NCBI GenBank assembly: GCA_015233465.1
Contig: JADFXP010000008.1
Location: 1 to 64,000 of the forward strand
Direction of reading: 5' to 3'
DNA: 64,000 bases
Origin: Candidatus Magnetominusculus dajiuhuensis
GTDB taxonomy: Bacteria; Nitrospirota; Thermodesulfovibrionia; Thermodesulfovibrionales; Magnetobacteriaceae
Of the stretch, positions 1 to 58,601 are shown one piece after another. The position numbers and the translations under genes are program-made. How positions within the stretch are numbered: the first letter of the stretch is position 1; every line of letters begins with the position of its first letter. Below the pieces are notes generated by a model. That model had not been told where the DNA came from, ran no database searches, and was given only the letters and a program-made list of their open reading frames with translations.

Positions 1-2
1 TT

Positions 3-329
3 ACAGGGTTTAGAGAATTCTCAGGTGGTAATATATTTAATACCTCAATTGATGAAGCCCTTGATTCCGAGCCGTTTCATAAGGTCAGAAGCCGTCATGT
101 TGAAAATATTTCAGAATGCAGTGACTGCGGTCTAAGAAATATCTGCGGGTCTCCTTGTCCAGCAGAAATGTATGGAAGAGGCGATATATACAAAAAGGCA
201 GAGTTTTGCGAGTTTTATAAGGATATTATTGGCTATGCCTTTAAGTTGATTGCTGAGGATAAGGTTGGGCTTTTGCTTAGGAAAGATTCACTGGAACAGA
301 TGGAGTTTGAATATAAATTAACCTCATGA
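3..329 (+). CDS. Radical SAM/SPASM-domain protein, C-terminal fragment
   Basis: This is the 3' end of a gene that begins before the window; 108 codons are readable in frame to the TGA at 327-329. The fragment carries a cysteine array, C-x2-C-x5-C-x3-C followed by PAE (the segment CSDCGLRNICGSPCPAE), and a later FCEFYK. That pattern is typical of the SPASM auxiliary iron-sulfur domain at the C-terminus of radical SAM enzymes that modify peptides or mature sulfatases. The radical SAM core (CxxxCxxC) lies outside the window, so substrate and exact family cannot be told. The stop codon sits inside the first hairpin of a palindromic repeat. The SPASM assignment is fairly safe; the function is open. 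Confidence 0.8.
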   Translation, partial: TGFREFSGGNIFNTSIDEALDSEPFHKVRSRHVENISECSDCGLRNICGSPCPAEMYGRGDIYKKAEFCEFYKDIIGYAFKLIAEDKVGLLLRKDSLEQMEFEYKLTS

Positions 330-55400: not shown

Positions 55401-56183
55401 ATGAATATCGTTGTATGCGTAAAACAAGTGCCAGATACTGCTGAGGTCAAGATTGATCCAAAGACCAATACATTAATAAGAGACGGCGTGCCAAGTATAA
55501 TTAATCCCTATGATATGCACGCCATTGAAGCAGCTCTTGAAATAAAAGAAAAGATCGGGGGAACTGTGACAGTTCTCACAATGGGTCCTCCGCAGGCAGA
55601 AACTGCCCTTAGAGACGCAATTTCTCTTGGCGCAGATGAGGCAGTATTATTATCAGACAGGGCATTTGCAGGCTCAGATACTTGGGCAACCGCTTATACA
55701 CTTGCAGGGGCTATTAAAAAAATTGGATTTGATATAATTATATGCGGGAAACAGGCAATTGACGGCGATACAGCACAGGTTGGACCTGGAATAGCAGAGT
55801 TTCTTAATATACCGCATGTTGCATTTGTAAGTAAGATCAAAGATATTACAGAGCAGACTCTGACATTAGATAGAATGATGGATGATAGATATGAGATTGT
55901 TGAAGCAGATATGCCAGTACTCTTCACAGTTGTAAAAGAAATAAATGTGCCAAGACTTCCCTCCTTAAAAGGAAAGATTAAGGCTAAAAAGATAGAGATT
56001 AAAAAGATGACAAACGCTGAGATTGGTTTAGATGTTGAGTCATTAGGACTTTCTGGTTCTCCAACTCAGGTTAAAAATATATTTGCACCTGATATTGTAA
56101 AAGATAGAAAGATGTTAGAAGGCGGAGTAGAGGAGCAAGTCAATCAATTAATGTCGGTGCTAAAAGAGCTTAAATGTGTTTAA
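55401..56183 (+). CDS. etfB: Electron transfer flavoprotein beta subunit
   Basis: A 260-residue EtfB: VCVKQVPDTAEVKIDP, INPYDMHAIEAALEIKE, the AMP/FAD-site segment GKQAIDGDTAQVGPGIAE, and ADMPVLFTVVKEINVPRLPS. It accepts electrons from acyl-CoA dehydrogenase, directly upstream. etfA, normally the next gene, is missing here; the next gene is the methyltransferase selenoprotein, whose GTG start overlaps etfB by 8 bp. EtfA must be encoded elsewhere. Whether this ETF bifurcates cannot be judged. Confidence 0.95.
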   Translation: MNIVVCVKQVPDTAEVKIDPKTNTLIRDGVPSIINPYDMHAIEAALEIKEKIGGTVTVLTMGPPQAETALRDAISLGADEAVLLSDRAFAGSDTWATAYTLAGAIKKIGFDIIICGKQAIDGDTAQVGPGIAEFLNIPHVAFVSKIKDITEQTLTLDRMMDDRYEIVEADMPVLFTVVKEINVPRLPSLKGKIKAKKIEIKKMTNAEIGLDVESLGLSGSPTQVKNIFAPDIVKDRKMLEGGVEEQVNQLMSVLKELKCV

Positions 56184-56964
56184 GTTCTTTAATAAATTAA
56201 TCCGAAGTAATAAAAGCGAAAATTGCCCTCAAATAAATACCGACGAATTTAGTGAAAAAGTCAAGGAAGTATATTCCTCTGTTGCTGCAAACCCTTATGA
56301 TAAACACTCTTTCCCCACTGGCAGAAAATTTGCAGAATCAATCGGCTATCCAAAAGAGATACTTGATAAATTACCAGCAATAACTGTAGATTGCTTTGCA
56401 GGTGTTTCTAATGTTTCCATTTACGCATCAATTCCACAAGGTGCTGCTGTACTTGATTTAGGATGCGGAGCAGGTCTTGATACCCTTATTGCAGCACAAA
56501 AAACTGGCAGCAGTGGAAGGGTCATAGGGATAGATTTTAGCGAGGCTATGATAAATAAGGCTAATTTTGGCATTAAACAATGTGGATATACTAATGTATC
56601 ACTTCAAATAGAACATGCAGATACATTATCACTGCCGGATTCCTCCATTGATATTGCCTTAGTAAATGGAATCTTCAATCTAAATCCATTTCGTGAAAAG
56701 ATATTTATTGAACTTGCGCGAGTTATTAAAAAAGGCGGGGTTGTATATGCCTCTGAATTAATATTAAAAGAGCCAAACATATCTTCAATCGTATGCAGCT
56801 TGGATAATTGGCTTAATTGAATAGCTGGTGCTAAAGAAGGCGTCGCCTTCATAGAAGAATTTAGGCAGGCAGGTTTTTCACAAGCAAAAATCCTTAAAAC
56901 CAGCCGTAATGCACGAACGAAAAATCCAAAAGTTATAGTTGCAGATGTTCAAGTTGTAAAATAA
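56176..56964 (+). CDS. SAM-dependent methyltransferase, ArsM-like, probable selenoprotein (TGA read as Sec)
   Basis: Read through the in-frame TGA at 56818-56820, the product has 262 residues with selenocysteine at 215. The class I SAM motifs are VLDLGCGAGLDTLIAAQ, VIGIDFSEAMINKA and VNGIFNLNP, as in arsenite-methyltransferase-like proteins. The sequence around the TGA is DNWLN-U-IAGAKEGVAFIE, then EEFRQAGF; relatives have Cys before the (I/V)AGA motif, where ArsM binds arsenic. Coding signal continues for 47 codons to TAA, and a SECIS-like hairpin follows the TGA. The N-terminal ArsM Cys of the GCGNP type is absent (CFAGVSNV), so arsenic as substrate is unproven. If Sec is not inserted, the gene is a pseudogene ending at residue 214. 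Confidence 0.82.
56831..56854 (+). promoter_or_regulatory. Bacterial SECIS-like hairpin downstream of in-frame TGA
   Basis: Perfect stem GAAGGC/GCCTTC (56836-56841 with 56845-56850) closes the loop GTC (56842-56844); an outer CTA/TAG pair extends it across a small internal loop. Twenty-one nucleotides separate the TGA from the loop. A short stem with a G-U loop at this distance is what bacterial SelB recognises. It lies within the coding sequence, as bacterial SECIS elements do. Confidence 0.75.
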
Positions 56965-57027
56965 GAGAAAATTCCGCCGCGCAAGTGATTAATATGCGCG
57001 GCTAATAGAGATTGACTGCCCGAACCA

Positions 57028-57180
57028 TTAACTAAATACCCTAATAAGTGAACTATCAGGAGAAAGATATTTGTTAGAAATATCCCTTATAAGGCTGTAT
57101 CTTTCAATCAAACTAAGGTCAAAATAAATATCTGTATCCATAAGTATTTCTACGATTTCTTTAACTCTGCTATTATCCAT
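57028..57180 (-). CDS. Small acidic protein, 50 residues, paralogue of its neighbour
   Basis: It reads MDNSRVKEIVEILMDTDIYF at the start and ends SPDSSLIRVFS. The ATG is 7 nt after GGAG; an ATG two codons upstream lies too close to it. Its first 30 residues align with the gene just upstream (57199-57342) over MD-x-x-x-(V/L)KEI-x-E-x-LM-x-TD-x-YFD. The C-termini diverge. No known family; both the size and the conserved-front, variable-tail design recall leader-core peptides, but no modifying enzyme is adjacent. Confidence 0.65.
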   Translation of the reverse strand: MDNSRVKEIVEILMDTDIYFDLSLIERYSLIRDISNKYLSPDSSLIRVFS

Positions 57181-57198
57181 TATCATTCTCCTTAGAAA

Positions 57199-57342
57199 TT
57201 AGTGCACTGTCTCAACAGTATTATAGTTCTCAAAACATGGAACTTCTGTAACTAACTTGTAGCTTTCCCAAATCTTTACATCAAAATATGCATCCGTTGA
57301 CATCAACATCTCTTCAATCTCTTTTAATTTGTTAATATCCAT
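57199..57342 (-). CDS. Small acidic protein, 47 residues, paralogue of its neighbour
   Basis: It reads MDINKLKEIEEMLMSTDAYF at the start and ends ENYNTVETVH, with one Cys (EVPCFEN). AAGGAG lies 9 nt before the ATG. It is first of a two-gene minus-strand unit with the 50-residue paralogue, 18 bp apart. The upstream spacer has a strong palindrome at 57402-57440. Function unknown. Confidence 0.65.
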   Translation of the reverse strand: MDINKLKEIEEMLMSTDAYFDVKIWESYKLVTEVPCFENYNTVETVH

Positions 57343-57401
57343 TTTTTAAACTCCTTAGTATATTTAATAATTACGCTATTTATATAAGCAATATCCATGC
57401 C

Positions 57402-57440
57402 AGCTATATTTTAAAAGTAATACTTTCTTAAAATATAGCT
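57402..57440. repeat. Palindrome in divergent spacer (possible operator)
   Basis: AGCTATATTTTAA at 57402-57414 and its exact complement at 57428-57440 flank an inner AAGTA-A-TACTT palindrome. It lies between the minus-strand small-ORF pair and the plus-strand K+ channel gene (divergent), so it could be an operator for either. It is AT-rich, so a transcription-factor site is more plausible than a terminator. The rest of 57343-57569 shows nothing else. Confidence 0.6.
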
Positions 57441-57569: not shown

Positions 57570-58601
57570 ATGACAGAAAAGTACAATTTTGAGTTATATA
57601 GTCAATTTGTTTACAGGCGGTTCATATGGACTGTGCCAATATTTATGAGCGTGCTGATAATTGGGACAACTGGATATTATATTATAAGCGATGGTCAGGC
57701 ATCATTTATAGATTGTTTATATATGACGGTAATAACAGTTACTACCATTGGCTTTGGTGAGATAATTGATCTTCATAATAAGCCTTATGGCAGGGTATTT
57801 ACAATGTTTATAGCCTTATCTGGCATAGGGGCTTTGACGTATATACTTTCAAGTATAACTGCTTTTATAGTTGGAGGCGAGTTAAAAGAGGTTTATAGGA
57901 GGAAAAAGATGAATAAACAGGCAATGGCATTTCAAAACCATTATATTGTCTGTGGAATTGAAGGCGTGGGTCATTATATAGTCAAGGAATTAATTGCCAC
58001 GAACCGCCCGCACATTATTGTTGATAACAGCGAGGAGCATATAAATGAACTACTGCGCACTATTGATGAAAAAGTATATATAATAGGCGATGCAATGGAT
58101 GATAACACTCTGATGGAGGCTGGAATAGAAAGGGCATCTGGGCTCTTTGCAGTTACAGGGGACGACAATCACAATCTTGTAATATGTCTGAGCGCAAAAC
58201 AATTAAATCCAAAGATAAGGGTAGTAGTGCGATGCAGACAGATAAAAAATATGGATAAGATGAGGAAGGTTGGCGCAGATTCCATAGTATCGCCTCAATT
58301 TATTGGCGGATTAAGGATGGCATCAGAGATGATTCGCCCTGCAACGGTTTCATTTTTGGATGCAATGCTGCGAGGCGGTAAGAATCTAAGGGTTGAGGAT
58401 ATGAAAATTCCTGATACATTTAGAGAAAGACAAGTTCAAGAGCTAAAACTTGAGGTGTTATTGATGGCTATAAAGACAAAAGATGATGATTGGATATATA
58501 ATCCATCTCCTCAATATATAGTTAAGTCAGGGGATTCATTGATAATACTTTGTTCTCCAGAAGAGAGAAAGGTGATAAATAGTAAGTTTGCTCAAGAATA
58601 A
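57570..58601 (+). CDS. Two-helix K+ channel with RCK (TrkA-N/TrkA-C) domains
   Basis: A 343-residue channel subunit. Membrane helix 1 is at about 15-38, the pore helix and filter TVTTIGFGE at about 55-64, and helix 2 at about 72-95. The filter IGFGE is a variant of TVGYGD. The RCK-N domain (about 112-230) has CGIEGVGHYIVKEL, IVDNSEEHI and GDAMDDNTLMEAGIERA; TrkA-C covers about 260-340. Such channels are gated by a ligand such as Ca2+ or a nucleotide bound to RCK (family knowledge). The methyltransferase gene follows after 18 bp. Confidence 0.93.
   Translation: MTEKYNFELYSQFVYRRFIWTVPIFMSVLIIGTTGYYIISDGQASFIDCLYMTVITVTTIGFGEIIDLHNKPYGRVFTMFIALSGIGALTYILSSITAFIVGGELKEVYRRKKMNKQAMAFQNHYIVCGIEGVGHYIVKELIATNRPHIIVDNSEEHINELLRTIDEKVYIIGDAMDDNTLMEAGIERASGLFAVTGDDNHNLVICLSAKQLNPKIRVVVRCRQIKNMDKMRKVGADSIVSPQFIGGLRMASEMIRPATVSFLDAMLRGGKNLRVEDMKIPDTFRERQVQELKLEVLLMAIKTKDDDWIYNPSPQYIVKSGDSLIILCSPEERKVINSKFAQE

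Follow-up and report, generated by a model that had tools for sequence, protein, structure and literature searches.

Two very short open reading frames lie in tandem on the minus strand of the window, by which we mean the whole 64-kb stretch of Candidatus Magnetominusculus dajiuhuensis DNA that was analysed. The question is whether they are genes and what their products would do. The original prediction described paralogous ORFs of 47 and 50 codons, each preceded by an AAGGAG ribosome-binding site and sharing the front K-E-I-x-E-x-LM-x-T-D-x-YFD. All of this was confirmed at the positions given in Table 1, and the likeness is beyond chance, as copy B, the second gene, retrieves copy A, the first, from the same genome at E=1.5e-4. 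The AAGGAG-to-ATG distance is 7-8 nt in both copies, and 18 nt separate the stop of copy A from the start of copy B, for which a start at an in-frame ATG upstream, at 57186, would add two residues. The pair is convergent with a methyltransferase gene (56176-56820, plus strand) and divergent from a TrkA-type potassium-channel gene (57570-58601, plus strand), and so has the layout of a transcription unit of its own. The hairpin 3' of copy B is the probable terminator of the A-B unit; it misses the strict terminator rule of the prediction tool.

Table 1. Features of the small-gene pair, with positions in the 64-kb window
Feature	Position	Strand	Basis or remark
GC-rich hairpin GCCGCGCA-N11-TGCGCGGC, then T-rich stretch, 3' of copy B	56976..57002	-	z=-4.0
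Copy B, 50-aa small protein, second gene of pair	57028..57180	-	ORF reading; profile match 8.9e-22
Ribosome-binding site AAGGAG, copy B	57188..57193	-	sequence
Copy A, 47-aa small protein, first gene of pair	57199..57342	-	ORF reading; profile match 4.0e-18
Ribosome-binding site AAGGAG, copy A	57351..57356	-	sequence
Sigma-54 promoter TGGCATGGATATTGCT (GG-N10-GC)	57387..57402	-	44 nt before copy A ATG
Perfect 13-bp inverted repeat AGCTATATTTTAA-N13-TTAAAATATAGCT, abutting the -24 element	57402..57440	-	hairpin z=-3.76

A profile built from 15 members detected the family in 59 of the 156 genomes of the window's order (38%; E down to 1e-22), a set that includes incomplete MAGs. With a wider profile, a sample of 396 genomes from across the phylum Nitrospirota yielded members in 60. 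The set used below comprises 99 distinct members, related by ancestry, taken from loci in Nitrospirota genomes. They are about 40-70 residues long, and presence is patchy, with one to five copies per genome. Of the named records in which the strict motif LMESx[FVL]YF[DE] occurs, nearly all bear the label Nitrospirae, Nitrospirota, Nitrospiraceae or Thermodesulfovibrio, the others being one Deltaproteobacteria MAG (L067) and two unclassified BMS3B bacteria; this record scan was narrow, and divergent members may be spread more widely. No significant match to the family was obtained in Pfam, NCBIfam, PHROGs or PDB sequences, and no description of it was found in the literature searched. It is a previously undescribed family, found in Nitrospirota. 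Between close members, dN/dS is mostly 0.05-0.35; the few values above this, up to 0.6, are noisy and come from very few changes. The original prediction had named homologues and substitution ratios as its check: the ORFs do have homologues, and nearly all close pairs give a dN/dS clearly under one. Its view of the ORFs as translated-looking, too short for routine gene calling and of unknown family is thus supported, and judging by sequence comparison we regard a real protein family as almost certain.

A third copy was found on another contig of the same genome (C31; E=2.4e-12), with 61% identity to copy B. The three copies form one group in the tree (SH-aLRT 92), so the tandem pair is a local duplication, specific to this lineage, inside the small-protein family. 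Copy A is a divergent member, on a long branch and without the nearly invariant Arg of the family's 'ER' pair. Comparison of copies A and B (pN 0.33, pS 0.72) indicates purifying selection between them. The tandem arrangement originally reported holds for this genome and fails elsewhere, as a second member occurs at no other locus among all those read.

Across the family, the nearly invariant positions read ILMES-x-x-YF-x-L-x-L-x-ER-x-x-L. AlphaFold2, run on copy B with 22 relatives, places three helices at residues 3-13, 17-21 and 24-39 (model without Met1), with a pLDDT of about 95 for the core that falls to about 53 in the tail. That the two copies differ in the tail therefore stands in a modified form: what looked like a conserved front and a variable end is, on this model, a folded core of about 38 residues plus a tail predicted to be disordered. 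No signal sequence or membrane segment was evident by eye in the member sequences, and we predict a mini-protein that stays in the cytoplasm. A structure search returned nothing better than E=4 among PDB and viral models. In 16 otherwise divergent members (L049, L053, L054, L056, L058, L108-L111, L115, L120, L121, L138 and L148-L150), the tail carries the motif [VI]GYE[SA]SW or a form near it, mostly at about residue 51. This C-terminal motif resembles a docking motif.

The original prediction noted that a constant front and a variable end in tandem, as in this pair, occur among RiPP precursors, small toxins and signalling peptides; on that reading, a constant leader would precede a variable core. 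A SPASM-like protein ending near window position 329 is in keeping with that idea, but at 57 kb from the pair it does not amount to linkage. What the window holds of this cysteine-rich protein is its C-terminal end (1-329, plus strand), cut by the window edge. The conserved part of the family is predicted to be a folded core rather than a cleavable leader, and several members (38-41 aa) stop right after it. Every member found is solitary except the window's pair. The commonest Pfam family beside members occurs five times among 150 non-redundant nearest neighbours, and neither a maturase nor a peptide exporter is among the 25 commonest flanking families (150 non-redundant flanking proteins); nor does an immunity gene recur beside members. 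No relatives were found in plasmids or viral contigs. A toxin-antitoxin module was likewise dropped: a same-strand neighbour lies within 60 bp upstream in just 4 of the 99 members and downstream in 8, and no recurring toxin-antitoxin-like partner gene was found among their neighbours. Considering that the tandem is unique, that the other members are solitary and that no neighbour recurs, neither a RiPP precursor nor a toxin-antitoxin pair is supported, and the peptide reading as a whole is highly improbable.

Neighbour contexts are kept within lineages only: after ssrA, beside a thymidine-phosphorylase-like gene, or behind a PilZ/sigma-54-activator gene. In lineage f12 (L009, L011, L035 and L075), the member has a sigma-28-type promoter and lies downstream of ssrA (tmRNA), near smpB. 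A link to tmRNA was dropped, members lying just 3' of ssrA in one lineage only. In the PilZ-linked class (L108, L109, L110, L115, L121, L163 and L164), synteny is conserved: the member follows, after about 180 bp, a gene that encodes PilZ, sigma-54-activator and Fis-type HTH (HTH_8) domains, and an N-acetylmuramoyl-L-alanine amidase gene lies downstream of it. Several of these loci have AGTGTAAA/TTTACACT-like repeats between the activator gene and the member, which are possible enhancer sites of the activator. Kinase or response-regulator genes occur near 20 loci, with no enrichment at the nearest gene relative to farther ones; they were taken as background and a two-component partner was dropped.

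The main clue to the pair, absent from the original prediction, is the sigma-54 promoter. Sigma-54 and sigma-28 are alternative sigma factors, switches for flagella, pili and the cell surface. The sigma-54 -24/-12 promoter was defined as TGGCAY-N5-WTGCW (GG-N10-GC), and TGGCATGGATATTGCT upstream of copy A is a textbook site. The pattern TGGCAYRNNNNWTGCW was matched once in the window, at this promoter (0.16 expected). The inverted repeat that abuts it, not seen at the third copy, is a possible site for a regulator. No sigma-28 promoter was found upstream of the pair, and sigma-70 promoters around it showed no excess over chance. The pair would accordingly read as a two-gene transcription unit, running from the sigma-54 promoter through copy A and copy B to the hairpin.

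This promoter is not peculiar to the window. A first scan of the 200 nt upstream of each member used the consensus TGGCACGNNNNTTGCW, which was not tuned on the family, at a cut-off of 9/11. It retrieved 46 of the 99 members; shuffles predict 1.9, and the same scan of the reverse strand and of the downstream flank gave 2 and 1, respectively. A relaxed form is sharply bimodal, with 11-12 of 12 in 54 members; it was tuned on the family, yet run equally on control genes. Under one rule for all, a sigma-54 site lies upstream of 54/99 members and 13/697 neighbouring genes (Fisher p ~1e-43), and a sigma-28 site, defined as TAAAGTTT-N10-12-GCCGATAA, upstream of 30/99 and 11/697, respectively (p ~1e-20); because members are related, kinship inflates both tests and the p-values overstate independence. 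Many members lacking the sigma-54 site, plus some that have it, show GCCGATAA preceded by TAAAGTTT at the flagellar sigma-28 spacing. At least one of the two promoters was found for 76 members and both for eight, leaving 23 with neither by these rules, copy B among them, which is served by the copy A promoter. On the tree, whose resolution is poor, 19 changes of the sigma-54 label and 10 of the sigma-28 label are required, so the promoter link does not look like one inherited accident. On these sequence patterns, control of most family members by sigma-54 or sigma-28 is very likely.

Short solitary transcription units with a strong promoter and hairpins could also be those of a sigma-54-dependent small RNA whose ORF is incidental. 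This is scarcely credible, however, when synonymous changes far outnumber non-synonymous ones between close members and one protein motif is kept in very divergent members over the phylum. Ribosome-binding sites are kept as well, although start codons were picked partly by SD score, so that SD statistics are no independent evidence.

The genes sharing the promoter indicate what the family may be switched on with. In the window genome, the strict sigma-54 pattern has 18 sites, against 2 in a reversed-pattern control; some fall within the preceding gene, and a few have probably arisen by chance. Two of the 18 serve this family (the pair and the third copy). Further sites precede the genes for FlgM, FlhB, FliL, FliF, a pilin with an N-methylation motif, a histidine kinase, a GGDEF (diguanylate-cyclase) protein and TPR proteins. 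The 16-mer TGGCATGGATATTGCT itself recurs at G000:C1:34382-34397 (L165), within the last part of a peptidase-like reading frame that precedes flgM. A 71-aa lipoprotein-like ORF without a Pfam match (L172:1230-1442, minus strand) stands right behind another strict site of the same genome. In a complete non-flagellated genome, 3 of the 15 strict sites serve family members, and the remaining genes, named by eye, include response-regulator, LptC-like, LpxC-like and cytochrome-like ones. RpoN was detected in 150 of the 156 genomes of the order, with a match of 9.9e-132 in the window genome. Sigma-54 has been described as a controller of the cell exterior, acting on flagella, envelope and surface genes (Francke et al. 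2011, PMC3162934); such surface-gene control matches the genes sharing the promoter in the window genome, whereas that survey covers the regulon and not this small-protein family.

Co-regulation with flagellar and pilin genes under sigma-54 and sigma-28 would also suit a small, chaperone-like accessory factor of surface structures such as flagella or type IV pili. Such a protein would be produced together with the appendage, which would depend on it for assembly, export or positioning at the pole. In the window genome, the third copy adjoins a PilT-like (T2SSE) ATPase gene, and PilT-family genes are present in every genome of the order. That universality makes a correlation with type IV pili uninformative, and it contrasts with a family found in 38% of the genomes. 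Family presence is also independent of flagella, judged by FlhA/FliA (32/95 flagellated and 27/61 non-flagellated genomes, p=0.24), so a flagellar part was ruled out. Among the loci read, no flagellar or pilus gene was found to recur beside members, and patchy presence in one to five copies would be odd for an assembly factor. We consider this role distinctly unlikely, a little more so than the anti-factor discussed next.

The sigma-28-type members themselves mostly go with flagella: 21 of 25 are in genomes with FlhA or FliA, compared with 26 of 57 other members (p=0.0015). Sigma-54-type members are present also where FliA is missing, and several genomes, e.g. G033, G049, G091, G094 and G095, hold paralogues of both types. 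Such paralogues, the tiny helical size, the conserved place behind the PilZ/sigma-54-activator gene in one class and a self-regulated layout, with the gene's own promoter inside the same regulon, would fit a specific anti-factor. Much as FlgM acts on sigma-28, such a protein would bind to sigma-54, to sigma-28 or to an AAA+ enhancer-binding protein and silence the regulon it belongs to. Against this, the window genome has an ordinary FlgM (PF04316, 3.1e-16), so the family is not needed as an anti-sigma-28 factor, sigma-54-controlled members exist without FliA, and neither Pfam nor NCBIfam links the family to any anti-sigma family. An anti-factor is therefore an unlikely reading; it is a special case of a feedback or adaptor role, to which the assembly accessory is a rival.

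The simplest reading of a small, soluble, helical protein encoded by solitary genes, with several paralogues and the promoter of a specialised regulon, is a regulator or adaptor that binds other proteins. Lone family genes would be expressed together with the sigma-54 and/or sigma-28 regulons, which cover flagella, pili and envelope functions, and the protein would be made once the alternative sigma factor fires. Through its helical face, plus the tail where present, it may then dock on some part of that cascade or appendage, which it would adjust as a feedback or checkpoint adaptor. The family itself, the selection on it, its link to the promoters, its solitary layout and the duplication are shown by sequence, and the fold is predicted; from these results we infer this regulatory role and any partner, and likewise expression and translation. 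The reading as a whole, a small-protein family of sigma-54/sigma-28 regulons that serves as a feedback or adaptor regulator, seems to us moderately probable; taken separately, the regulator or adaptor role of the protein is put forward tentatively. More speculative still are clade-specific plug-in checkpoint regulators of the sigma-54/sigma-28 cascade, with the gene re-wired repeatedly, paralogues on different sigma factors and the GYESSW docking tail in one subfamily.

Known regulators offer partial parallels. FlgM, the anti-sigma-28 factor, is a small helical protein in the flagellar regulon and a feedback regulator by its position in the cascade. The family resembles it in being small, helical and inside the regulon concerned. 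It differs in sequence, none of the 15 members scanned matching the FlgM domain PF04316, in having a core of only about 38 residues, in coexisting with a separate FlgM in the window genome and in occurring also in genomes without FliA or FlhA. Regulators of two-component systems of the Spo0E/Sda type are helical proteins of 40-85 residues, encoded by solitary genes of a specialised regulon with several paralogues per genome. The likeness here is a works-like comparison only, of size, helices, paralogues, solitary genes and specialised regulon. Motif and phylum differ, the family has no Pfam or NCBIfam match to either, and histidine-kinase/response-regulator genes are no commoner as its nearest neighbours than farther off.

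Gene callers miss very small proteins, and this family, without a model in the libraries searched, nonetheless holds a fifth (3/15) of the strict sigma-54 sites in one Nitrospirota genome. An orphan sigma-54 site followed by a ribosome-binding site is a way to find other unannotated small proteins. With the promoter class known, what switches the family on and what its protein touches are directly testable. Sulfate reducers, nitrite oxidisers and magnetotactic bacteria all belong to this phylum, whose motility and surface programme could gain a further regulator in this family.
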